Shown piece by piece: positions 6,093 through 60,198 of a stretch of DNA of 64,000 nucleotides. The translations under genes and the position numbers were made by a program. How positions within the stretch are numbered: the stretch's first letter is position 1; each line of letters begins with the position of its first letter. The notes below the pieces were generated by a model. That model saw only the letters and a program-made list of their open reading frames with translations, did not search any database and was not told the DNA's origin. Origin of the DNA: Ignavibacteria bacterium (GTDB taxonomy: Bacteria; Bacteroidota; Ignavibacteria; Kapaibacteriales; Kapaibacteriaceae); contig JACPPD010000006.1 in the NCBI GenBank assembly GCA_016191145.1, positions 1 to 64,000 on the forward strand, written 5' to 3'.

Positions 6093-9000
6093 TTCATCAT
6101 AGTAATGATACTGGCCTGCCTGCCAGTAAGACTTGTTAACTCAACTACATAAGTTCCATCTACTGAATGCAGATCCGGGAGAATAATTTCATCGTCAGTA
6201 GACAAACTGGCGAGCATCAAACTATATACAGTTGTCCCCAATAAGTCATAAACGGAGATTTTCACATCCTTCTGAGCTGTTCCGGAATAGCGTATCGTGA
6301 AAGACCCAGTGGATGGATTCGGATAAGAGACAAAAGTTGTGGATACCTCTGTTCTTTCACTCAATTGATCGTTCTGAAATGGCTGCTTTGAGAAGCCGTC
6401 CGGCCGTTTGGCGTGTTCTACTTCTAACGTCTTAAGGCTATTCAGCGTATCGCGCCTCTCAACAAAACCGATTGCAGTATCGCCCATTACGCCAAGCCAA
6501 TCGGAAAGCAAATTCACGTCGATGGAATCAAACCCGCCAAACACCGTAATTCTAGCTGTGTCCAACCAACCCTTTGCATTTATGTAGTCTTCGTTAAAGA
6601 CTAACAAATCGACTCTACCCAGAATGCCTTTCTCGCGCAGGCTCTTCGGTTGAGTAGTGTCCAGCCCAATAGACTTTAATGTGTCAGCTAGTTCGTCAAC
6701 AACTGAGTCTGCCTGTGGATGACCTTCGGCTGCAACAATTGCCACTGAAATAGAAGCTGAACGGCTGGCAACACTGATTCCACGATTACTCAATATGTAG
6801 AGTGCCGCCGGATATGCTCGTTTTGCAAACGCCGTGTCACCCTCCAATATATCTCCGGCAACGAATGACAATACGTCAAAGTTGGCTGGATTTATCGTGC
6901 TCAAGGCTCTGTTCGGATCAAAAGGGTTTCCATCTTCCACCGGAAGAGCAACGCACTCGAATTCAACTTCGAGTTCACGTGTCAACTCGGAACATTGTTC
7001 AGTACCGTACGGGTGTTGACCATCGCGAAGATCCACCACGTCTGGTGGTATGACGACAAGAGCATTCCTTCGAATAAGCTGAACCTGATCGTACGTCCAC
7101 TCATTAGTTGACACATCAATTGTGACGGGAGGCGTTTGATCCTCTTTTTGAAGCTGGAATCGCTGTAAGCTATTCCCTGCACTAAATACATTCTTACCAC
7201 ACTTTACATTCACCAATCCGGTAGGGCCCATGAACATGTCAGCATCCTCATTCCCTTTTCGATAAGGATTTGAAAGTCGGTTGGACCCCACGAACAGATT
7301 CCTACCGTTAACATAGGCATCACCCTGATTGGTTTGCATTGACGTCCGAAAAGCAAATTTATCACGAGCGTCGATGGTACCAGAATGTGCGTGCAAGCCG
7401 GTTCCATAGTACGACAGCTCGTTATTCCTACAAAATGCTAACACTTCTCCGTTAATGAACAATCCTGACCCAACCCACTTCACCTCGTTGCCTGAAGAAA
7501 TGAGAGAGTTAACTGACGAACCCATCTCAGCACCAATTCGATTGTCAAACACAAAGGAATAAGCATTGAATCTGCTGGTAATGGCATTAACACAGCCACT
7601 CAAGTCGTTATCACAAACTTTGGCACTCCTGACAATAATGCCATCGGCGAGCCCGCCCAATTTGTTTCCGCTCACAACAGAAGGTGGACCTTCAATATTC
7701 ACACCATAGAACAAAAAGGCGAACTTGTTCTCGATAACTTTATACGTACCTATTCCCGTGATACTCAGCCCGGCTACGGGATAATCATTGACTTCCCTCG
7801 TTAGAGATCGATAATTTAAAGAAGTAATAATCTTACCAGCAACGTCAGTGAATGAACAATTTGAAACCGTGAGATCTCGCACAAGACGCATCCCACTCAA
7901 GTAATTGAATAACGAGACTCCTCCAAATTCATCTCGTTGTTTACGAAATGGTTGTTTTAACCATTTTGACGAGAAAAATGTACCTTTTCTATAATCTTCT
8001 TTAATCTCATTTCCTGTGAAGACGTCCCGATTGGTTCTGAACTCACAGTTTGCAAGTTTACCTGCTACCAGCGTTGAGCCTTCGAGCGACAAGATCGGTG
8101 TGTTAAGAGTTGTTACGAACACATTCTCAAACTTGGTGTACTGAGCATACAGATAGAAATTCAGGCGCTGATCCAAAGGATCGGTTGTCGGTGCCCCGTT
8201 TGGGTATATCCACGCTTCGGGCAAAATGTTGAGGTTGGCAAAATCGACGTGATTAAGTGTCGAACAGTTTGCGTTTGGCTCAACAGCACTCTTCACCGTT
8301 ACTTTCATCGCCTCAGAAGAGCTCGTTCCGGCAATCACGAGTTTCCCATGAACGTTGTTCTCGCGGTCCAGAAACTGGAGTGTCGAACCGGGTGAAACTG
8401 TTAAGAGGCCATTAGCTCTTACGTTGAGTGCGCCAACTTTCAGTGTAGAAAACTGATCAACCATGACAGAACCACCGGCCTTTATCTCAACGGGCACATT
8501 CAGTTTGCAGGTTGTATTGGTAGGGATGCGTATTCCCTCACTTGCCTCGATGACCAACCCGGGAGCATTGCCGTCGAGTTTCTCAATAAAACTCTTATCG
8601 ACTGTAGAAATTTTGCCACCAGACTTAACAATGACTTTATACACTTTTACATTTGGGAATATTTCTGTCATCGCATCACCGACTTCGAGTTTTGCACCAT
8701 CATTAATGACCAGTTCTGCATCGATCACAACTTCTTCGGCTTTTGCATCAATAACCAATTTGCCGCCATTGACTGCACCTTGTTTCACATCCAATACAAT
8801 ACAGTCGTTCGCATTATTCGTTCTCATGTCAAGGATGCGTGATCCATGCATCATTCTCAAGGTAGCACCACGCTTGACAACAACTTTGGCACCGTCATAT
8901 AAATACATTGTTGATCCGGGCATCATGGTGACTGTCCCTGATTCGATGACGATAGTACTGTTACCACGTACCCACATCGCATCATGCAGCTCGCCATTCG

Positions 9001-11425
9001 TTTGTGATCCGCTTAAGGCTTTGTATACAATAACGTCGGCCTGTGATTCAGTTCGATTAACATATAAATCGAAGGTTTTTATGCAACCTTCCATCTTAAC
9101 GTTATGGAGATACCCTGTTGAAAGTATCTTACCGGTCTGTGCAGTAGATATTTTCTTATCCGACGTTGTGGAGGTTAAAATTCCATCAATGACAAGCACC
9201 TGAGCGTTACCCACAGAAAGATCATTGTCGACAATGGTTTTACCATTATTATTTTTATAATCGGGTTCATTATTATACTTAATGCCACCCTTTTCAAGAA
9301 CTAACTCTGTGGCATTTTTATATTTTCCAAGATGTAAATATGTTTTCCCATTCAGAGAATGACCTTTCAGCCAGTCCAGATTATCACTTGATGTGTATTG
9401 GTATTTTGTATTTGTCAGACCGAGTAAGTTTGAACCTGGAATTGAATGGGCAAGACATCTGAATGCATTAACACGACCAAACCCAACTCTAATAGCCCAG
9501 TAGCGCTTAAGTGGATCATTTGACATCTCTCGATAGTCGGTGTTAAGTAGCGTTTGATTGGCATTCAACAAATCAGGCTGGAGGTCAGCTGTGAGCGGAT
9601 TTGGTGGGTAAAACTTCCGAGTCGCTGTCCTTTGACTACATATGAGATCAGCTAATTCTGAAGCTTCAGGAACTGGGTCTTCAGCGGTAGTATGAGCAAC
9701 TTCATAAGGAACACCAGGATCTGCGATCTTGTCGGCTGTGAAGGTTACGATGTCATAAACTCTGCGGTGTACATTCTTACCGGTTAAGCCAAACTTATCT
9801 TGAACTGACATCATGAGTCCAATGATCCCGCTCACTTGCGGTACAGCGTATGAATTACCGGATTCACTCGAGCTTGATTGACGATAATATCGTGATTTGA
9901 TGTCGGCGTCATAATATCTCGCATATAATCGTGGATATGGCGCCACAACATCAATTGTGGCTCTGAACTTGTCGCCCGCTCTTTCTTGCTGAGAGGATGA
10001 AATCGAGAATTTATTCGCTCCAAAAGAGAAGTTTGTGGAATTTCTAAGAAATAGTACACCCCTGTCAGCGGTCTTGCAATCTGGTAATATCACATCTGAG
10101 TTGCTCCCAATGTCATACCCCTTGACACACAGTACTTTTATATCATCGTTTGGATCGCTTGAATACGTGTATACATTACCTGCCGGAAGAGTTATGCTCG
10201 GAAAACCCATTTCTGCAGATACATTGATTGGGTTGTCGCTTTCTGAACACTGCGCAATATTTTCGGGGCGTGGTTCCTGATATTCATTTCCTAGTTCATC
10301 GTACGCAGAATATGAGAGCGAATTTGTCAAAGCCGCGGCTACAACAACACCGTTTTCAATTGCCGCCTTATATATATCAGGATCAGGAATTCCTCCTTCG
10401 TATGAAATAGACATCACATGAGGTGTCTGAATTCCCGGATTCGGTGAAACATCAACCTTAGAATAATCTGTGCCTCTGGCAGTCCCAAACACTCTGACCT
10501 GGGGAGCAACGCCGATCAGCCCCTTGCCATTTTCCTGTGATGCTATGATATTTAAAATTATGAAACCATGTCCGCTTGTACCGTCTGATTGCTTATAATC
10601 CTGTAGCTTAACAATCTGATTTGGAGGTGTCGGATAAAAATAATTTCCGGCCGGGTTTGATGTAGTAAGGGAAAGATCTTGGTGCTCCTGATGCGGTCCT
10701 GTATAGCCCGCATCGAAATTATCATCGACACCTACATATACGTTCTGACTTCCCTTCGTTATTTCCCATGCCATTGGTAAATGAAGATCATACAGTGACT
10801 TCTGCATTCCCAACTCATTGTACCTTTCTTCTCCGTCATAATCATAAGTATAACTTATACCCATTGGCGCTGCAACTTCACTCAATTTCTTTAATGGCAA
10901 CATACCAGGTTCAGTCGGTTCACCGAGCAGTTTCATCTGTCGATTAACATATCTAATGCCTGCGCTGTCGACGATAGGAAATAGCGTACTTTTAATACTA
11001 TCGATATTTACATAATTATTGAAGCTAACATAATACATTTTTATATACAGACTTGATGAATCCGTACATGTTGGGCATGCCTTTGTCAATTTCAAACCAC
11101 CATTAGCCGTATTCAGGCTATCCCAAATATCATAATAATTAACTGTTGTATCAAAGTCATCAATTGTATAAACACCATTTGAGTCAGCGACAGCTCCAGA
11201 TGATAAAATACCATAGGATACAATTATTTCAAATCTTCCCTTAGCATACCAGCTACCGGGAGAATTACATGTATCAATCATGATACTGTCGGGATTAAAC
11301 TGAGAGGTCTGAGGATTATGTGGATACTTCAAATACAAACATTGCGCCGATGTTCTCACTTCTTGTGAAAGAAATAATGCAACAGAAACACCGAGCATAG
11401 CGAAAAAAAACGGATTTGTCTTCAC
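6089..11425 (-). CDS. Subtilisin-like (S8) serine protease with beta-helix region and T9SS sorting domain
   Basis: 1778 residues from a GTG start preceded by GAGGTGAGAAG. Signal peptide at 1-28. The S8 triad can be located at Asp235 (VGVDDNFD), His286 (DGTSGHGF) and Ser525 (SGNSYAVPQVSG, a variant of the usual GTSMAxPxVSG). Residues ~680-1450 are rich in short repetitive strands (VVKRGATLRM, NGLLTVSPGS and similar), as expected for right-handed parallel beta-helix repeats. The last ~85 residues (YPNPSTGSFTIRYSG, then VYDLLGTTVYS) are a T9SS type A sorting domain. First gene of the locus, overlapping the next by four bases. Probably a surface or secreted protease with a carbohydrate- or protein-binding stalk. 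The many substitutions around the triad leave some doubt about activity. Confidence 0.85.
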   Translation of the reverse strand: MKTNPFFFAMLGVSVALFLSQEVRTSAQCLYLKYPHNPQTSQFNPDSIMIDTCNSPGSWYAKGRFEIIVSYGILSSGAVADSNGVYTIDDFDTTVNYYDIWDSLNTANGGLKLTKACPTCTDSSSLYIKMYYVSFNNYVNIDSIKSTLFPIVDSAGIRYVNRQMKLLGEPTEPGMLPLKKLSEVAAPMGISYTYDYDGEERYNELGMQKSLYDLHLPMAWEITKGSQNVYVGVDDNFDAGYTGPHQEHQDLSLTTSNPAGNYFYPTPPNQIVKLQDYKQSDGTSGHGFIILNIIASQENGKGLIGVAPQVRVFGTARGTDYSKVDVSPNPGIQTPHVMSISYEGGIPDPDIYKAAIENGVVVAAALTNSLSYSAYDELGNEYQEPRPENIAQCSESDNPINVSAEMGFPSITLPAGNVYTYSSDPNDDIKVLCVKGYDIGSNSDVILPDCKTADRGVLFLRNSTNFSFGANKFSISSSQQERAGDKFRATIDVVAPYPRLYARYYDADIKSRYYRQSSSSESGNSYAVPQVSGIIGLMMSVQDKFGLTGKNVHRRVYDIVTFTADKIADPGVPYEVAHTTAEDPVPEASELADLICSQRTATRKFYPPNPLTADLQPDLLNANQTLLNTDYREMSNDPLKRYWAIRVGFGRVNAFRCLAHSIPGSNLLGLTNTKYQYTSSDNLDWLKGHSLNGKTYLHLGKYKNATELVLEKGGIKYNNEPDYKNNNGKTIVDNDLSVGNAQVLVIDGILTSTTSDKKISTAQTGKILSTGYLHNVKMEGCIKTFDLYVNRTESQADVIVYKALSGSQTNGELHDAMWVRGNSTIVIESGTVTMMPGSTMYLYDGAKVVVKRGATLRMMHGSRILDMRTNNANDCIVLDVKQGAVNGGKLVIDAKAEEVVIDAELVINDGAKLEVGDAMTEIFPNVKVYKVIVKSGGKISTVDKSFIEKLDGNAPGLVIEASEGIRIPTNTTCKLNVPVEIKAGGSVMVDQFSTLKVGALNVRANGLLTVSPGSTLQFLDRENNVHGKLVIAGTSSSEAMKVTVKSAVEPNANCSTLNHVDFANLNILPEAWIYPNGAPTTDPLDQRLNFYLYAQYTKFENVFVTTLNTPILSLEGSTLVAGKLANCEFRTNRDVFTGNEIKEDYRKGTFFSSKWLKQPFRKQRDEFGGVSLFNYLSGMRLVRDLTVSNCSFTDVAGKIITSLNYRSLTREVNDYPVAGLSITGIGTYKVIENKFAFLFYGVNIEGPPSVVSGNKLGGLADGIIVRSAKVCDNDLSGCVNAITSRFNAYSFVFDNRIGAEMGSSVNSLISSGNEVKWVGSGLFINGEVLAFCRNNELSYYGTGLHAHSGTIDARDKFAFRTSMQTNQGDAYVNGRNLFVGSNRLSNPYRKGNEDADMFMGPTGLVNVKCGKNVFSAGNSLQRFQLQKEDQTPPVTIDVSTNEWTYDQVQLIRRNALVVIPPDVVDLRDGQHPYGTEQCSELTRELEVEFECVALPVEDGNPFDPNRALSTINPANFDVLSFVAGDILEGDTAFAKRAYPAALYILSNRGISVASRSASISVAIVAAEGHPQADSVVDELADTLKSIGLDTTQPKSLREKGILGRVDLLVFNEDYINAKGWLDTARITVFGGFDSIDVNLLSDWLGVMGDTAIGFVERRDTLNSLKTLEVEHAKRPDGFSKQPFQNDQLSERTEVSTTFVSYPNPSTGSFTIRYSGTAQKDVKISVYDLLGTTVYSLMLASLSTDDEIILPDLHSVDGTYVVELTSLTGRQASIITMMK

Positions 11426-48656: not shown

Positions 48657-48940
48657 TGGATACCACGACAATTCAGCTATTGTACCTTGTAATTTTAATG
48701 ATTTTTCTTGGCGTGGAGCTGATACATCACGTACCGTCGGTTCTGCATACGCCTCTGATGAGCGGAGCAAATGCAATACACGGAGTGGTAATCATTGGTT
48801 CAATCATCGTAATGGGAATGGCCGATGATACACTATCAATGATCCTTGGCTTTCTTGCAGTCCTCCTTGGCACACTGAACGTAGTTGGCGGCTTCGTAGT
48901 CACCAACCGCATGCTCGAAATGTTCAGGAGAAAATCGTGA
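48656..48940 (+). CDS. pntAB: NAD(P) transhydrogenase subunit alpha part 2
   Basis: 94 residues with three to four membrane helices (LLYLVILMIFLGVELI, HGVVIIGSIIVMGMA, MILGFLAVLLGTLNVVGGFVV). The conserved PLMSGANAIHG loop is typical of the PntA membrane part. Together with the pntB helices it forms the proton channel of domain II. Both ends overlap neighbouring genes, so stoichiometric translation is likely. Confidence 0.95.
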   Translation: MDTTTIQLLYLVILMIFLGVELIHHVPSVLHTPLMSGANAIHGVVIIGSIIVMGMADDTLSMILGFLAVLLGTLNVVGGFVVTNRMLEMFRRKS

Positions 48941-50334
48941 TGGATGCAACTCTGCCAATTTTATATCTCGTCGCCTCGGTAACCTTCATTATTGGTCTCA
49001 AGATGCTTGGCTCGCCCAAGACGGCGCGGCCCGGAAACCTCATTGCAGCCGTAGGCATGGGTATTGCAATTGCTGGTACGATTTTTTTGTACAAGGGTCA
49101 TACGGGCGAGCATCTTCACAACCTGGGATGGATTTTTGGAGCATTAGTAATTGGGTCTGTTATAGGCTGGCTGATGGCGATGCGGGTGAAGATGACTGCA
49201 ATGCCACAGATGGTAAGTTTTTTTAATGGCATGGGCGGGGCATGTGCCGCGCTGATATCGCTACTCGAATACAAAGCAGTTGGCGGCGAGGCATTGGGTA
49301 TTGGAAATGGATTAGCCACGGTTGCCGGCTTGCTCATTGGCAGCGTAAGCTTCAGCGGGTCGATGATTGCCTTTGGAAAGCTTGAAGAAAAAATTGGCGA
49401 CATTCGTTTTAGCGGACAGCAAATCGTCAACAATGCAATCTTGTTGGCGGCCATCGTTCTGGCAGGGTTAATAGCTACCGGAAACATTACCGATTTCAGC
49501 GCCATCATCCTTCTTGCAGGTGTAGCTCTTGTATTCGGAGTGCTGTTTGTATTTCCAATCGGCGGCGCCGATATGCCTGTTGTTATCTCGTTATTAAATT
49601 CATTTACTGGTGTTGCGGCTGCGTGTGGCGGTTTTATTTACCACAACATGGTAATGCTGATAGGGGGCATCCTTGTGGGGAGCGCAGGTTCCATTCTCAC
49701 CATTGTGATGTGTAGAAGCATGAACCGCTCTTTGACCAACGTGCTGTTCTCGAATTTCGGAGGCACTACTGCTGTTGCTGCAACAGGCGAGAAATCCCAG
49801 GGGTCGGTTAGAGAAGTAACATGCAGCGATGCTGCCGTTATGATGTCGTATGCCAAGCAAGTTGTAATTGTACCCGGATATGGGCTTGCCGTTGCACAGG
49901 CGCAGCATGCATGCCATCAGTTGGAAATGGAGCTCGAGGCAAAGGGCGTTACCGTTAAGTATGCCGTTCACCCGGTTGCAGGCCGCATGCCCGGCCACAT
50001 GAATGTGCTGCTTGCAGAGGCAGATGTGGACTACGATAAACTTGTAGAAATGGACGAAATCAATCCGGAGTTTCCACAGACGGATGTAGCGCTGGTAGTG
50101 GGCGCCAACGATGTAGTGAATCCGGCTGCAAAAACGGATCCGTCGTCGCCGATATATGGAATGCCGATACTCGACGTCGAAAACGCCCGACAGGTAATTG
50201 TAATGAAGCGTTCAATGCGTGCAGGGTATGCAGGTATCGAAAACGAACTGTTCTTCCGTCCAAACACGGCAATGTTGTTCGGCGATGCAAAGAGCAGCAT
50301 GACGAACCTCGTTACTGAAGTCAAGGCATTGTAA
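48940..50334 (+). CDS. pntB: NAD(P) transhydrogenase subunit beta
   Basis: 464 residues from the ATG at 48940, preceded by AGGAG and overlapping the pntAB stop (TGATG). An N-terminal membrane domain with about eight helices is followed by the NADP(H)-binding domain III (VIVPGYGLAVAQAQHACHQL, VKYAVHPVAGRMPGHMNVLL, GANDVVNPAA, MPILDVENA and VMKRSMRAGYAGIEN). All hallmark motifs are present. A short TGCC-TTCG-GGCA hairpin with a T-rich tail follows the stop at 50337 and may be a weak terminator. Confidence 0.96.
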   Translation: MDATLPILYLVASVTFIIGLKMLGSPKTARPGNLIAAVGMGIAIAGTIFLYKGHTGEHLHNLGWIFGALVIGSVIGWLMAMRVKMTAMPQMVSFFNGMGGACAALISLLEYKAVGGEALGIGNGLATVAGLLIGSVSFSGSMIAFGKLEEKIGDIRFSGQQIVNNAILLAAIVLAGLIATGNITDFSAIILLAGVALVFGVLFVFPIGGADMPVVISLLNSFTGVAAACGGFIYHNMVMLIGGILVGSAGSILTIVMCRSMNRSLTNVLFSNFGGTTAVAATGEKSQGSVREVTCSDAAVMMSYAKQVVIVPGYGLAVAQAQHACHQLEMELEAKGVTVKYAVHPVAGRMPGHMNVLLAEADVDYDKLVEMDEINPEFPQTDVALVVGANDVVNPAAKTDPSSPIYGMPILDVENARQVIVMKRSMRAGYAGIENELFFRPNTAMLFGDAKSSMTNLVTEVKAL

Positions 50335-50420
50335 TCTGCCTTCGGGCATCTTTTCTTTGGCAAATTCTCCTCGGTTAGTCATACGGCGTGAGTCGGGAGA
50401 AACTATTAACAATATTTAGT

Positions 50421-51608
50421 ATGCATCGAGACTCTGAAACAAAGGTCGTCCGCACACAGATGGGGCGGACGGGTGAGAAGGAACACACGTCGCCTGTATT
50501 CCTGACGTCGAGCTTTATCTTCGACGATGCCGAACACATGCGCGCATCGTTTGCCGATGAAATCGAAGGCAATATTTATACACGTTTTACAAATCCTAAC
50601 AATAGTGAATTTGTAAGAAAAATGTGTGTTCTCGAGGGAGCCGAAGCAGGTGTTGCAACATCGTCGGGCATGGCAGCGGGATTCGCATCCGTCATGGGAT
50701 TGCTCAGAAGCGGCGACCACATTGTTTCGTCGCGCGCACTGTTTGGCGGAACTCACGGTATGCTAACAAATTTTCTTCCACGCTGGGGCATCACGAGTAC
50801 ACTCGTTGATATCGCCGATGAAGATCAGTGGATTGGCGCTATTACGCCATCAACACGGATGTTGTTGGTGGAAACTCCATCGAACCCGGGCTTAGACCTT
50901 GCTGACCTGGAATTTCTCGGCGCTCTGGCGCGAGAGCGAAATCTTATTCTCAACGTCGACAACACGTTTGGCACGCCCCTTATCCAACAACCAATAATGT
51001 ACGGTGCAGACCTTGTTTGGCACTCGGCAACAAAATGGATAGATGGGCAGGGTAGGGGCTTGGGAGGCGTAGTTCTTGGTCGGGCAGATTTGATCGGCGA
51101 TATCGGCGCATTTTGCAGGAATACCGGTCCATCGATGTCGCCCATGCATTCATGGCTGTTCAGTAAAAGTTTGGAGACGCTTCCTGTGCGGATGGATAGG
51201 CATAGTGCAAATGCTTTGTTGGTTGCCGAATTTCTTGAAGGGCATCAGCAGATAGAACGCGTAAAGTATCCATGGTTACAATCGCATCCTCAGTATAAAC
51301 TGGCGCGCAAACAAATGACGTCGGGCGGAGGCGTTGTTGCATTCTGCATCAAACATGACGGAAGCAATGAGAGTGCTCTCAGACGAGCCACGAAGTTTAT
51401 TGATAGTGTTCGTATGTGTTCAATCACAGCCAACCTTGGCGATACGAGAACGATAGTTGTGCATCCCACAACGTCGACGCATTCAAAACTTACCGAAGAG
51501 GCTCGTCGGGAAGTTGGAATAACACCGAATATGATTCGCATCAGCGTTGGTTTGGAGAGTATTGCCGACATCATAGAAGATCTGGATCAGGCGCTGAACG
51601 GCGGTTAA
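50421..51608 (+). CDS. metZ: O-succinyl/acetylhomoserine sulfhydrylase
   Basis: 395 residues from the ATG at 50421; a GTG 11 codons earlier is possible, but family members start near here. PLP fold type I of the Cys/Met metabolism group: SPVFLTSSFIFDDAEHM, YTRFTNPNNSEF, SSGMAAGFASVM, VETPSNPG, VDNTFGTPL, and the PLP lysine in HSATKWIDGQGRGLGG. It converts activated homoserine plus sulfide to homocysteine. metX and hom follow on the same strand. The choice between the succinyl and acetyl substrate cannot be made from sequence by eye; the metX neighbour supplies the acylated homoserine. Confidence 0.92.
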   Translation: MHRDSETKVVRTQMGRTGEKEHTSPVFLTSSFIFDDAEHMRASFADEIEGNIYTRFTNPNNSEFVRKMCVLEGAEAGVATSSGMAAGFASVMGLLRSGDHIVSSRALFGGTHGMLTNFLPRWGITSTLVDIADEDQWIGAITPSTRMLLVETPSNPGLDLADLEFLGALARERNLILNVDNTFGTPLIQQPIMYGADLVWHSATKWIDGQGRGLGGVVLGRADLIGDIGAFCRNTGPSMSPMHSWLFSKSLETLPVRMDRHSANALLVAEFLEGHQQIERVKYPWLQSHPQYKLARKQMTSGGGVVAFCIKHDGSNESALRRATKFIDSVRMCSITANLGDTRTIVVHPTTSTHSKLTEEARREVGITPNMIRISVGLESIADIIEDLDQALNGG

Positions 51609-54711: not shown

Positions 54712-56325
54712 TTATTTCTGCACTACCGAAATAACATGTTCCAATGTTGCCGCATCTAACGGTTGTCCATCAGTAACATAATTTACTATTTTCACACTGG
54801 TAAAAGATATTCCACTCTTTCTTCGAGGTGCCGGTTTTGCTCCACGAACAGCTACATCGAATACAAATCTTGGTTCAATGGTGCGAACAGGTCCGCTGCT
54901 GGCTATGGTGGAGTGCCTGACGTGTTCTGCAATCTCTTTGAGCACATCGGGATTTGAAGGCGGAATAACGTGGACGAGTGGAATCAGCACACCGTCGGAC
55001 CACACGCCCATGGTCAATTTTTCAAATCCACGGCGTCCGCCTGTACGCAAATGAACATGCATGACAACTGTTCTGAATGTATGAGCAACATCGGTTACTG
55101 GTGCGGCGCGCTCGTGCACAATTTGTCGGACGGGTTCCAGATCGGGTGTTTTGTACTTCAGGATTTTTTTAATCATGTTCTTTCCCAAGTGAGCAGGGAG
55201 AGCAGTTGCGTCGGGCACAAGCAGAGCAACAGTTTCCGCAATGCTACCAACGTGACGCACACACTCTTCTATGAGCCGCTGATCGAAACCCGTATGCTCT
55301 TCAAGGAATGTATGAAGCTTGCCCACGGGATTCTCTTCAGTCGAGCCAATGGCATCGGAATGCTGGTGTTCCATCACTTCCGCCTGAAGGCCGTTGCCTG
55401 AAAGGTGATGGGCCAATTGTCGAGAAAATCCATGATTGACGAAGACGCGTTCGCATTCCGTTTCTCGAACAGTGTCTACTAAGGCATGCCAATCAGCGTG
55501 GTCACTCAGAATGAATCCCGTTTCGGATGGCTCTCGTCTGCCTGCCGTCCGCACAGCCAGCCACCCCGATGCACGCCCCCTTGCAACTGCTCCATCTTCC
55601 TGCATCCAGTCGGGTCCAATGCCAATTGACGGAGTAATAATCAATGATCGCTCAGCTTCCTCCTTTGTAGTAAAATTAGTTAGTAATGCAGTGTTGGGTA
55701 TGTTGTGTCCGGCTGCCGACATTGCGTTATTCATGGTCATCACAGAAGGGTGGACATATACAGGTCCAATCGATAAGTCAATCGATCCAAGAATGTGTTG
55801 AGCCTTCCCAAGGGAATATGCGTTAATTACACTTGGAAGATGGGCATCTGCATTAGACCTCCACCACGAATTAATTTTTTGAATCGTTGCATTCTGTTGC
55901 GGCCAACGATATACCGGTAACCCAAACGTAGACTCAGTAATAAACGTATGGCAACGCACAGGTTCAAACGCTTGGGCATAAGGATCGGCATCGCGTTTGT
56001 AATCGCCCGAAGCAACCCAAACCTCGCCCTTGTATTCCACACGCACCTGAGCAGAACCGGCTATGTGTCCTGCGGGATGAAGCGAAACACGCACACCGTT
56101 GATCGTCACAGGTTCGTTATACCCAACATCGCTAATGTGAAGGTTGCCACCCAAACGTGCGTGCAAAAGCGGCGTTGTTTCACGATGACATAAGTAAGCC
56201 TCCATGCCCCTTCTTGCATGATCGCTGTGTGCATGTGTGATGATTGCTCTCGATACAGAACGGAGAGGATCGATATAAAAATCTCCCTCCGGACAATACA
56301 ATCCACAATTGGTGTTGATGAGCAT
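54712..56325 (-). CDS. MBL-fold DNA exonuclease fused to ATP-dependent DNA ligase fragments, no adenylation domain
   Basis: 537 residues. Residues 1-325 match 'ligase-associated DNA exonuclease' proteins: GLYCPEGDFYIDP, the metal site H31-A-H33-S-D35-H36, PAGHIAGSAQVRV, SGDYKRD, ITESTFGLPVYRWP and ILSDHADW (274-279). Residues ~336-373 (KLHTFLEEHTGFDQRLIEE, then HVGSIAETVALLVP) match the end of the ligase N-terminal domain. Residues ~417-530 (GGRRGFEKLTMGVWSDGVL, SSGPVRTIEPRFVFDVAV, RRKSGISF) match the ligase C-terminal OB domain. The ~200-residue nucleotidyltransferase domain with the KxDG lysine is absent, so it should not ligate alone. Exonuclease role in end repair is inferred from the family. 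Confidence 0.8.
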   Translation of the reverse strand: MLINTNCGLYCPEGDFYIDPLRSVSRAIITHAHSDHARRGMEAYLCHRETTPLLHARLGGNLHISDVGYNEPVTINGVRVSLHPAGHIAGSAQVRVEYKGEVWVASGDYKRDADPYAQAFEPVRCHTFITESTFGLPVYRWPQQNATIQKINSWWRSNADAHLPSVINAYSLGKAQHILGSIDLSIGPVYVHPSVMTMNNAMSAAGHNIPNTALLTNFTTKEEAERSLIITPSIGIGPDWMQEDGAVARGRASGWLAVRTAGRREPSETGFILSDHADWHALVDTVRETECERVFVNHGFSRQLAHHLSGNGLQAEVMEHQHSDAIGSTEENPVGKLHTFLEEHTGFDQRLIEECVRHVGSIAETVALLVPDATALPAHLGKNMIKKILKYKTPDLEPVRQIVHERAAPVTDVAHTFRTVVMHVHLRTGGRRGFEKLTMGVWSDGVLIPLVHVIPPSNPDVLKEIAEHVRHSTIASSGPVRTIEPRFVFDVAVRGAKPAPRRKSGISFTSVKIVNYVTDGQPLDAATLEHVISVVQK

Positions 56326-56358: not shown

Positions 56359-58452
56359 ATGTTTTTTTCGTTATGCCTTTTCGTTTCAAGTCTGTTCATA
56401 TCAGTAACAGCATTTGCTCAAATTCATGCCCTCGTGCGACTCAATCAGCCTGTTGCAGACATGATACTGCTCGACGCGGGAACAGTGCGAATGTTTACAC
56501 AGGATCTCGATGTTTGGGAAGCAGTTCCTACAACAAAGCTTTGGAAGCATGTGCCTCCAAAAATTAATGTTGCGCCCGGTTCTTATGCGGTTCGCAGAGT
56601 TTCCCAGTTTACACAAGTCGGCCCAGTACTGCTTGGGTCTGGCCACATTGTCCTTGACGTTGGTTCAGCCGAAATCTCATCCATTCTCAGATCAACAGAT
56701 TACGGCAAGTCGTTTGACTTGATTGCAGTTGGTACCGACACACTGGCATCGGCCGACATCATTCGAAAAACAGATGACGGCGTGGTGTACTTTCTCGACC
56801 GTGTTGGACGCGTGTGGAAATCTGCTGATACCGGAAGAACGTGGACAAATATCAGGCTGCCAAATCAGATTCCTATCGGTGGTGCCCGCGAGCTTGACAT
56901 GGTAACAAGCTCCATGGGTGTCTGCATTGATCTTCAGCGAAATATTCACTTTACTACAAATGGCTGGAGCTCAGTTCTTACGCCAATGACGTCTAAGCGT
57001 CAGATTCTGCGAACGCAGCCAACATTTCTTGAGTACTTCAATTGGAACAGACACCTCGTTATGACGAATTCAATGCTGTATCTCATTGAAGGTCCAGACA
57101 TCTATAGGACAGCAACTAACGATTTGCTCTGGGAGCGGTGGGATACGGTAAATACGTTCAATGCATCGGACGACAGAAAAACATTAGCATGGTCTGACGT
57201 TAAAGGACGGCTGTGGATGACAAGTTCCGCAGCCGTCAACCCAATTCTTTTGGACGAGCATGTGCTTCCTCCATCATTAATCCGCGTTTATGCATCGGCA
57301 GTGGTTACCTATCGTGAGGACACCGGACCAGTTGTCTATTCTCATGGGTCAGCCACGGCTATCTATCCGCGGAATGCCGATCAGGACTACGTCCGTCCGT
57401 ACATTACGGCGGTCGGTAAATCGGGTGAATGGGGCATCGATGCTATCGACCATCGATCCATCCATTTCGAACTGCTGCATCGCGACGGTAAATCTGGCCG
57501 CTGGATTACCGATACCACTCTCACCATTGGTCCTGTGCACGAATTAAAGCTCCTTTCATCGGATTCAGTGGTCTTTGGAACTGCGTATAATAGATATGTT
57601 TACAATGCAAAATCCCGTCTGTGCTCTGGTTATTCTGTTCGCAATCCATTGTCGGCATTTTTATCTTCACCCGTGTCCAGATTCCGTGCATTAGTTGCCG
57701 CCGATGAACTTGATTCGACGCATGTGAAATGGTGTGAGTACAGACTTCAGGGAGATGTGTTCGTTTGTGGTGAAGTAGTAGACAGTTCACGATTCGGCGT
57801 CGAATCCCAGCCTGCAAACATTTCGATCCCCGCCGCAGAAATTGCAGCGCTGCTAAGGCGCGTCAATGCTCGCGGCGACGAGCTTCTTACCGTCGGTGAG
57901 ATCGGGATAACCTCCGCTGATGTGAAATCGTTCGAAGCTATGCTGGATACTATATTTATTTACGATTCATATTTCGACATACTCGATCTATATCGGCCGC
58001 CCCCTGCCCCGGAAGTACAGATTGAAAACAGCCATACGAGGTTCAGAGAGATTTCTTCATCCATCTCCGATGTGTCGCCTGAGATGATCACACAGGCAAT
58101 TCTTGCATGGAGGAACATACCAATGGATGACTTCAGCCGATACCAAATAGAATTTGAAAACAGGTCGGGAAATTTTGCGCGGTTCAATGTTGAGCGATCC
58201 GATAATGCGCACCCGCCCTTGCTGCTGCCGTGGACAGGGCATTTCGGTGGCTGGCGTTGGCATTCGTGGGATAGGGGGCTGACGGAGCTGTTCATCAGGG
58301 CTATGCCTGAACAATCGGTCCCAAAGCAGTTCCTGGATATGTCCCGGACACCCTGGCTGCTTGCTGCTGTCGCGTCTTATGTAGATGGCAGGGAATATGG
58401 GCGACGGCATGTCTGGTCTGCCGGACAGATAACACCAAGCGCCCGAAAGTAA
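56359..58452 (+). CDS. Secreted Asp-box repeat protein of unknown function
   Basis: 697 residues with a signal peptide ending near VTAFAQ. Asp-box motifs STDYGKSFDL and SADTGRTWTN lie in the first third, within a propeller-like region; the rest has no recognised motif, and there is no T9SS sorting domain at the C-terminus. Divergent from the exonuclease-ligase gene with only 33 bases between starts, so they share a promoter region. The MscS gene follows after 42 bases and may be co-transcribed. Confidence 0.65.
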   Translation: MFFSLCLFVSSLFISVTAFAQIHALVRLNQPVADMILLDAGTVRMFTQDLDVWEAVPTTKLWKHVPPKINVAPGSYAVRRVSQFTQVGPVLLGSGHIVLDVGSAEISSILRSTDYGKSFDLIAVGTDTLASADIIRKTDDGVVYFLDRVGRVWKSADTGRTWTNIRLPNQIPIGGARELDMVTSSMGVCIDLQRNIHFTTNGWSSVLTPMTSKRQILRTQPTFLEYFNWNRHLVMTNSMLYLIEGPDIYRTATNDLLWERWDTVNTFNASDDRKTLAWSDVKGRLWMTSSAAVNPILLDEHVLPPSLIRVYASAVVTYREDTGPVVYSHGSATAIYPRNADQDYVRPYITAVGKSGEWGIDAIDHRSIHFELLHRDGKSGRWITDTTLTIGPVHELKLLSSDSVVFGTAYNRYVYNAKSRLCSGYSVRNPLSAFLSSPVSRFRALVAADELDSTHVKWCEYRLQGDVFVCGEVVDSSRFGVESQPANISIPAAEIAALLRRVNARGDELLTVGEIGITSADVKSFEAMLDTIFIYDSYFDILDLYRPPPAPEVQIENSHTRFREISSSISDVSPEMITQAILAWRNIPMDDFSRYQIEFENRSGNFARFNVERSDNAHPPLLLPWTGHFGGWRWHSWDRGLTELFIRAMPEQSVPKQFLDMSRTPWLLAAVASYVDGREYGRRHVWSAGQITPSARK

Positions 58453-58494: not shown

Positions 58495-60198
58495 ATGAAT
58501 TATGTAGTATTCCTATGTCTGTTGTTGATAACAACAGAGGCAAGGGCGCAGGATGCAAGCGGCGTAAGCGATTATGTTACTCTGGCTTCACAACCTGCAG
58601 ATGTTGTGGTCGATGGTCGGTTTGTTGTACGTTACTATGCAACACTGATTGGCTCTCCTCCATCTCAGCGTGCTGAGGCAACGACGAGGCGAATCGACTA
58701 TGCGCTGGAACACATGTCGGATGGCAAGATCGGTGTGTCGAAGTCCGACGTTGGTTACGCAATCATGCTCGATGAAAGCCCGACGGTATTTGTCACAGCA
58801 TTGGATAAGGATCCTCTATCTCCCGAACCGATAGAAAAGGTTGTCGAGCAGTCGCGTAGAGCCATTGAATCGGTTTCGAAAGAATATCGGGAAGCGAGAT
58901 CGTTGCCCGATATCATGCGCGGCATAGCGGTAACAATTATCGCCACGGCTCTGCTTTACGTCTTGCTGCGATTGCTGTTATATGGCCGCAGGAAAATTCT
59001 GAATGTAGTTGTTAAATATGTTGAGAATTTTATTCAGCAGACAAAACTGAGAAGCCTCGCAATTAGTTCCCGCCTTATCAATGTTATTCTGTTTAGGACG
59101 ATATCAATTATCGCGATTACATGTATCGCCATAGCATGCTTTTTCTATCTTTCAGTTGTCTTTGAACAATTTCCCATAACAAGAAGTTATGGCGAACATA
59201 TGCTGAGTATTGTAAGCGACAGCGCCTACGTTGTTATGAGATCGGTTATACAATCAGTACCCGGATTGTTAATGGTGGCGATAATTCTCGTCGTTGCCAT
59301 GTACGTTAATCGGGGCATAAACGCAATCCTTGATCGGATAGAAACCGGTGCTGTTCGCGTTGCTGTACTCGACCAGGATGTAGCGGCTCCAACTCGGCGG
59401 ATTGCATCAATCCTCGTTTGGGTTTTTGCATTAGCACTCGCATATCCATTCATTCCCGGTTCATCAACCGATGCGTTCAAGGGAGTGAGCGTTGTAGTTG
59501 GACTTATGCTCTCACTCGGTGCTGCGGGCGCCGTTGGACAGGTAGCCTCTGGTCTCATGATAATGTATTCAAGGAAGATCAAGGTTGGCGATTGGGTCAC
59601 CATTGGCGAACATACAGGGAAGATTGAAAGCATTGGATTTGCAGCCACTCGCCTGGCGACGTCGTTTATGGAAGAAATTCTAATTCCAAACGGAACAGTA
59701 ATGACGACTACCGTTGTCAACCATACCCGTCTTGCAGAGTCCGGCACAATGTACAGCACTAGCGTCACCATCGGGTACGATGCTCCCTGGAGACTCATAA
59801 GAAAAATGATGATTGCGGCTGCCGCTAAGACAAAAGGAATATCAGTAGAGCCTGCCCCGTACGTTACTCAGGTAACTCTCAGTGACTTTTTTGTTGAATA
59901 TCGTCTGACGGTTAACATGGTGGATCCCAATCTGCATCGGGAAGTAGTTGACGAATTGCATGCAACAATTCAAGATATGTTTAATGAAAATGGCGTGCAG
60001 ATCATGAGCCCGCATTACCACATCGACTCCGAAAAACCAAAAATTATTGATAAAAAAATGTGGGATCCGCCCCTTATATCGGATCAGCCTTTAATCGGGC
60101 ATCAGAGCCATCCCCGCAGGCTTGAGCGTGTGCAGAGAGTGAGAAAAGATGAGAAGACCGAGGAAGCAGGAAATGGTATATCTGCTCCAAGTACGTAG
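58495..60198 (+). CDS. Mechanosensitive ion channel (MscS family) with periplasmic N-terminus
   Basis: 567 residues. Signal peptide (ends TEARAQ), then a ~125-residue periplasmic part, and about five membrane segments from residue ~140. The pore helix TM3 region has GVSVVVGLMLSLGAAGAVGQVASGLMIMYSRKIKVGD-like features (Gly/Ala-rich packing, then VGDWVTIGEHTGKIESIGF beta domain, then EEILIPNGTVMTTTVVNHTR). The C-terminal alpha/beta domain ends near HYHIDSE, followed by a charged tail. Predicted inner-membrane channel opened by membrane tension in osmotic downshock; closest to the larger YnaI/MscM-type architectures. Confidence 0.9.
   Translation: MNYVVFLCLLLITTEARAQDASGVSDYVTLASQPADVVVDGRFVVRYYATLIGSPPSQRAEATTRRIDYALEHMSDGKIGVSKSDVGYAIMLDESPTVFVTALDKDPLSPEPIEKVVEQSRRAIESVSKEYREARSLPDIMRGIAVTIIATALLYVLLRLLLYGRRKILNVVVKYVENFIQQTKLRSLAISSRLINVILFRTISIIAITCIAIACFFYLSVVFEQFPITRSYGEHMLSIVSDSAYVVMRSVIQSVPGLLMVAIILVVAMYVNRGINAILDRIETGAVRVAVLDQDVAAPTRRIASILVWVFALALAYPFIPGSSTDAFKGVSVVVGLMLSLGAAGAVGQVASGLMIMYSRKIKVGDWVTIGEHTGKIESIGFAATRLATSFMEEILIPNGTVMTTTVVNHTRLAESGTMYSTSVTIGYDAPWRLIRKMMIAAAAKTKGISVEPAPYVTQVTLSDFFVEYRLTVNMVDPNLHREVVDELHATIQDMFNENGVQIMSPHYHIDSEKPKIIDKKMWDPPLISDQPLIGHQSHPRRLERVQRVRKDEKTEEAGNGISAPST

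Follow-up and report, generated by a model that had tools for sequence, protein, structure and literature searches.

The window (the whole stretch of 64,000 nucleotides that was analysed) carries on its reverse strand an open reading frame of 537 amino acids in which a β-CASP/MBL exonuclease is joined to the remnant of a DNA ligase that lacks its nucleotidyltransferase (NTase, or adenylation) domain. The parts of this gene are listed below; the window's own genome is referred to as G000, and related genomes are numbered likewise.

54712–56325, (-) strand: whole open reading frame (537 amino acids), exonuclease plus NTase-less ligase remnant; same architecture in G001, G002, G003 and G005
55357–56325, (-) strand: β-CASP/MBL exonuclease domain, residues 1–323; 411.4 bits to TIGR04122; dN/dS 0.144 against G001
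56218–56235, (-) strand: metal motif H31-x-H33-x-D35-H36; invariant in all ten rows of alignment A6
55186–55314, (-) strand: segment of the ligase N-terminal (DNA-binding) domain, residues 338–380, RLIEECVRHVGSIAETVALL; 26.2 bits to the N-domain HMM
55051–55185, (-) strand: variable linker at the former place of the NTase, residues 381–425; no NTase score
54715–55050, (-) strand: ligase OB domain, residues 426–537; 58.3 bits to the OB HMM; VIA Z 14.5 to 3gde
54883–54894, (-) strand: GPVR motif of the OB domain, residues 478–481; invariant in alignment A2
54811–54825, (-) strand: R-x-K-S-G motif of the OB domain, residues 501–505; R-x-K kept in ligase-derived sequences

The neighboring gene at 56359–58452 is divergent from the fusion gene and encodes a protein of 697 residues that matches Sortilin-Vps10 weakly (27.6 bits against a cut-off of 33); a homologue stands beside the fusion or the corresponding locus in G005 and G006. 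It is followed by a gene for an MscS-type channel (58495–60198).

An earlier note on this DNA had proposed a ligase-associated exonuclease with a complete metal site, and this part of the protein is well defined: residues 2–323 score 411.4 bits against the NCBIfam model TIGR04122 (ligase-associated DNA damage response exonuclease), whose curated cut-off is 325 bits, and all metal residues are present. The H-x-H-x-D-H motif occurs in all 26 exonucleases compared, and H87, D108, D275-H276 and H298 are, like the motif itself, invariant in the ten rows of alignment A6. Judged by its sequence, the metal site is complete, and nuclease activity is predicted. None of the PADLOC defence models matched at E ≤ 0.01, an absence from the library that is compatible with a defence role.

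Pfam reported no ligase domain in either the whole protein or the tail alone, and PF04679 had no match in the window's genome; the ligase origin is therefore visible only with family-specific models. Against domain HMMs built from eight intact ligases (those of G029 and G011, and six from named-record loci), the tail scored 26.2 bits for the N-terminal domain, 58.3 bits for the OB domain and -4.9 bits for the NTase, compared with 7.3, 6.6 and 5.4 bits, respectively, for the best of 1250 shuffled sequences. Both ligase segments named in the earlier note are thus present, and the adenylation domain that it had reported missing is absent; the NTase motif I, KxDG, is likewise not found in the tail. 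The last ~110 residues (about 427–536) also gave partial matches to the C-termini of two NCBIfam ligase models, PRK09247 (E = 4e-17) and TIGR04120 (E = 4e-15), although the score against the latter, a LigB-type ligase model, was 55.8 bits and so below its curated cut-off of 400 bits. The N-terminal domain is incomplete, since a stretch of ~70 residues alone matches, and this segment is weaker in relatives (11.8 bits in G003; 4.0 bits, which is not significant, in G005). Because MAFFT set the N-segment against the NTase in alignment A2, it is the HMM test, together with the intermediates described below, that supports its assignment. Alignments A1, A2, A3 and A5 misplaced ligase fragments and were left out of folding.

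Motif VI (RFPR...DK), which follows R-x-K-S-G in intact ligases, is lost from the tail, where the window has FTSVKIVNYVTDG instead; the RFP loop of the OB domain is also lost from the fused remnant. Motif VI is required, with ATP, for adenylation, and its loss fits a loss of that activity. Motif VI and the RFP loop also touch DNA at the nick, so DNA binding by the fused remnant may be altered. Together, the results confirm that the tail derives from a LigB-type ATP-dependent DNA ligase, of which it keeps part of the N-terminal domain and the OB domain but not the NTase.

A predicted structure of residues 326–537, computed from a 13-row alignment, contains helices and an OB fold (pLDDT 71.7, pTM 0.50). 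The PDB entries that it resembles most are ATP-dependent DNA ligases (3rr5 by Foldseek, E = 3.4e-6; 3gde by VIA, Z 14.5, rmsd 2.7 over 124 residues), matches that cover essentially the OB domain; this outcome supports the ligase derivation claimed for the tail. The full-length model (pLDDT 64.9) is unreliable over residues 407–523 and does not place the tail confidently, which makes it uninformative on docking.

Selection on each part was estimated from G000 and G001, the two closest genomes; comparisons with G002, G003 and G005 were saturated or nearly so at synonymous sites. Using a Nei-Gojobori style calculation with 1000 codon bootstraps (978 usable for residues 338–380), dN/dS was 0.144 (0.102–0.208) for the exonuclease, 0.078 (0.019–0.215) for the N-segment, 0.256 (0.135–0.467) for the OB domain and 0.72 (0.30–1.82) for the linker at residues 381–425, which is 53% identical between the two genomes and carries an insertion in G001. 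Both ligase pieces are under purifying selection, whereas the linker is not clearly so: between these genomes, the place of the missing NTase drifts while the ligase pieces are kept.

We compared the locus across a relatives set of 60 genomes that includes the window's own. An exonuclease over cut-off was present in 14 of them, and a ligase-model match in the identical 14, namely 13 of the 23 genomes of the family and one other member of the order (G029); the remaining ten family genomes have neither homologue. Among the 13 family ligase homologues, the NTase is intact in one (G011), degenerate in two (motif I reads HTYDG in G013 and LVEG in G008) and absent in ten. In five of these ten the NTase-less ligase has a gene of its own (G006, G009, G010, G017, G019), and in five it is fused to the exonuclease (G000, G001, G002, G003, G005, all of the window's genus and on different contigs). 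The earlier note had described a joining of genes that are usually neighbors, and this is what the comparison reveals: separate, usually adjacent genes in relatives, one open reading frame here. The architecture is not unique to the window with intact two-gene versions around it; it recurs in four further genomes of the genus, and five family genomes carry the gapped ligase unfused. The exonuclease tree does not unite the fused genomes in one group (three changes), a topology still compatible with a single origin of the fusion, and it fits at least two losses of the NTase within the family, with moderate support.

Beyond the family, no NTase-less ligase was found in the order (123 genomes). 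In a phylum sample of 392 genomes, which did not include G001 and G003, an exonuclease over cut-off occurred in 74, and among these only members of the window's genus (G000, G002 and G005) had open frames longer than 480 amino acids. Lists compared by hand indicate that 73 of the 74 also have a ligase-model match, the exception being G311. Several genomes of this sample encode, besides the full exonuclease, a second exonuclease-like protein of ~250–290 bits, below the TIGR04122 cut-off. A search of the contig database genome_contigs with the fusion protein returned only distant relatives, ten in all: in nine, the match between the ligase beside the exonuclease and the intact G029 ligase extended along most of its length or as far as the contig reached; in the tenth (L065) only a stretch of ligase matched, cut by the contig end. 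The same query had no match in viral_contigs.

A search for a separate ligase, suggested by the earlier note, gave no match to PF01068 (NTase) in the window's genome, which is 99.96% complete. Within the relatives set, PF01068 was found in five of the 60 genomes (over cut-off in G008, G011, G013 and G029; weakly in G044). The window's genome also has neither the Lhr-Core helicase nor MPE over cut-off. Lhr-Core exceeds its cut-off in G003, G005, G009, G011 and G029, and in G002 is split between two contig pieces; MPE is over cut-off in the same six, in a search that took in 30 genomes and left out G018–G022. Complete exonuclease-ligase-Lhr-MPE operons are found in G011, of the family, and G029, of the order. 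The fused exonuclease/gapped ligase occurs together with Lhr and MPE in G002, G003 and G005; in G003 the order is fused exonuclease-ligase, Lhr, MPE, with short overlaps. In G009 (L050, 5437–17660), the exonuclease lies ~10 kb from the gapped ligase with other genes between, and Lhr and MPE follow the ligase.

Two further genes of the window tie these arrangements together. The gene at 48937–50334 has homologues beside the locus in G008, G017, G019, G003 and G006, and that at 50388–51608 in G008, G017, G019 and the intact G011. Flanking genes are thus conserved across intact (G011), degenerate (G008), gapped (G006, G017, G019) and fused (G003, G000) loci, and the fusion therefore most likely descends from an intact operon at one chromosomal place. 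The flanking gene held in common with the G011 operon agrees with an origin by deletion in an exonuclease-ligase operon, as had been proposed. Exonuclease and ligase genes frequently overlap by 4 bases (in G017, G019 and G029, for example), so their fusion is a small step.

NTase-less ligases recur in three further families, and ruined catalytic motifs in several more. In one family (f61; the class search covering it comprised 391 genomes), four genomes (G482, G487, G491, G496) encode proteins of 286–298 amino acids with an N-terminal domain (84–99 bits) and an OB domain (98–106 bits) but no NTase, and no exonuclease is present in the locus stretches examined. In three of them the ligase gene adjoins a DUF2851-type gene on the same strand; PF11013 was identified by HMM in the G482 gene, and the genes of G487 and G496 are alike by eye. 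The pairs lie as follows.

L095 (G482), 7941–10319, same strand: NTase-less ligase plus DUF2851-type gene; PF11013 match
L096, 3533–5873, same strand: NTase-less ligase plus DUF2851-type gene
L098, 2213–4359, same strand: NTase-less ligase plus DUF2851-type gene

In this conserved pairing, with a DUF2851-type neighbor and no exonuclease nearby, docking to the exonuclease is not the sole context of such ligases. Three unsaturated pairs from this family gave dN/dS values of 0.12–0.19. In the second family (f17), G641 has an N-part and an OB domain but no NTase, on a piece cut short by the contig edge; in the third (f59), G465 has the same two domains beside an exonuclease, again without NTase, and family member G475 retains an intact motif I.

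Elsewhere the NTase is retained and its motif I is ruined, as in G133 and G138 (KPSG, KLSG), in G397, G128 and G332 (K to N) and in G576 (K to S). The last of these, which also has E changed to V in motif III, is apparently a dead ligase within an otherwise intact exonuclease-ligase-Lhr-MPE operon (L101, 2165–7884). G370 and G470, with an intact motif I and no recognizable motif V, were not counted as dead. The OB motifs persist throughout: among 40 ligase-derived sequences, active and dead (33 and 7 from two alignments), R-x-K is found in 40 and GP in 39, counts from which no frequency can be derived because the rows were chosen partly for their degenerate look. Between G133 and G138 the degenerate NTase is no more relaxed than the other domains (dN/dS 0.25, 0.25 and 0.24, with dS near saturation), which counts against the simple reading that only the N-terminal and OB domains are selected there. 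Ligase catalysis was probably lost before the fusion arose, and such losses have occurred repeatedly elsewhere. That the same kind of excision happened several times in related bacteria suggests a task for this ligase other than the sealing of DNA.

We consider it probable that the protein is a DNA-repair exonuclease whose ligase-derived tail, a non-catalytic leftover of the partner enzyme, would serve as a module for binding DNA or for docking. The exonuclease would trim DNA at lesions or ends, and the OB and N-terminal pieces would hold it on DNA, offer docking sites to partners (in genomes that have them, the Lhr helicase and MPE nuclease), or both. Ligase catalysis would have been lost before the NTase, and the NTase before the genes fused, with sealing left to another ligase, presumably an NAD+ ligase; once sealing was dispensable, the remnant would have become a fixed part of the nuclease. 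Counting against this reading are the loss of exonuclease and ligase alike from ten family genomes, the G311 exonuclease that has no ligase beside its name, and the faint N-segments of G003 and G005. A broader proposal, which we advance more tentatively and with slightly less than even confidence, is that the LigB-type ligase may serve its exonuclease as a non-catalytic DNA-binding adaptor, a role kept once sealing is dispensed with, and that it has repeatedly become a pseudo-ligase, through ruin of motif I or clean excision of the NTase, and in one genus was welded onto the nuclease.

Among other explanations, the nearest is that the exonuclease requires the remnant, folded against it, for stability or assembly, not for binding DNA. 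In its favor, exonuclease and ligase homologue occur together almost without exception (in all 13 family genomes that have the exonuclease, and in 73 of 74 of the phylum sample), regardless of whether the catalytic motifs are sound, and GP and R-x-K are retained in dead ligases. However, no ligase model is matched in G311 despite its over-cut-off exonuclease, the two genes lie far apart or on separate contigs in G397 and in G133, G138 and G128, and the position of the tail in the full-length model is of low confidence; we regard this explanation as unlikely. It is still less probable that the fusion is a decaying relic, a ligase on its way to loss that has no function of its own. Such decay would fit the gradual erosion of motifs, domains, helicase and MPE, and the disappearance of both genes from 10 of 23 family genomes, but dN/dS on the kept pieces is 0.078 and 0.256, with upper bootstrap limits of 0.215 and 0.467, the unsaturated f61 pairs are similarly constrained, and the same pieces were retained after separate losses.

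Both outer ligase domains are kept at least in part, as they would be in a split ligase completed by an adenylation domain supplied in trans. We consider this highly improbable: PF01068 has no match in the window's genome or in any family member with an NTase-less ligase, and motif VI, itself needed for adenylation, is lost too. With most of these assemblies broken into many contigs, an assembly or gene-call artefact might be suspected, but five genomes of the genus carry the same fusion on different contigs, the tail is under selection, five family genomes are gapped, and one intact operon has a flanking gene in common with them. We therefore give an artefact practically no weight.

Several features of this arrangement have precedents. 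The cluster of a LigB-type ATP-dependent ligase, MBL exonuclease, Lhr-Core helicase and MPE was described by Ejaz and Shuman in 2018, as cited in passages of PMC10140301 and PMC8301817. Exonuclease and ligase here are orthologues of those of the cluster, which is complete in G011 and G029; the differences are that the NTase is gone, the two genes are fused, and Lhr and MPE are absent from the window's genome. Exonuclease-LigB fusions are reported from Opitutus terrae and an Antarctic Dry Valley metagenome in the portion of PMC10140301 consulted; there, too, the exonuclease is joined to the ligase N-terminus, but the ligase is whole, whereas here it lacks the NTase. According to the same portion, it is not known what the repair cluster does, or what the nuclease does as a domain fused to the ligase. 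Measured against these parts of the two papers, the four-gene cluster and the fusion to a whole ligase are already known, and the conserved NTase-less form is new; searches of open PubMed Central yielded no NTase-less or pseudo-enzyme bacterial DNA ligase. Natural ligases kept by selection without a catalytic domain separate the structural role of a ligase from sealing, and they point to two directly testable surfaces, the N-segment and the GPVR/RxKSG face of the OB domain. They also call for caution, as dead ligases may pass for active ones when annotation relies on a ligase model. The best-known parallel is human Artemis (the SNM1C nuclease), which, according to the part of PMC3664939 consulted, binds the DNA-binding domain of DNA ligase IV. 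In both cases a β-CASP/MBL nuclease is held by a non-catalytic domain of an ATP-dependent ligase, a likeness that we offer as an analogy only; there a short Artemis peptide meets an intact ligase, and here, in what may be its bacterial counterpart, the nuclease is covalently fused to a gutted one.
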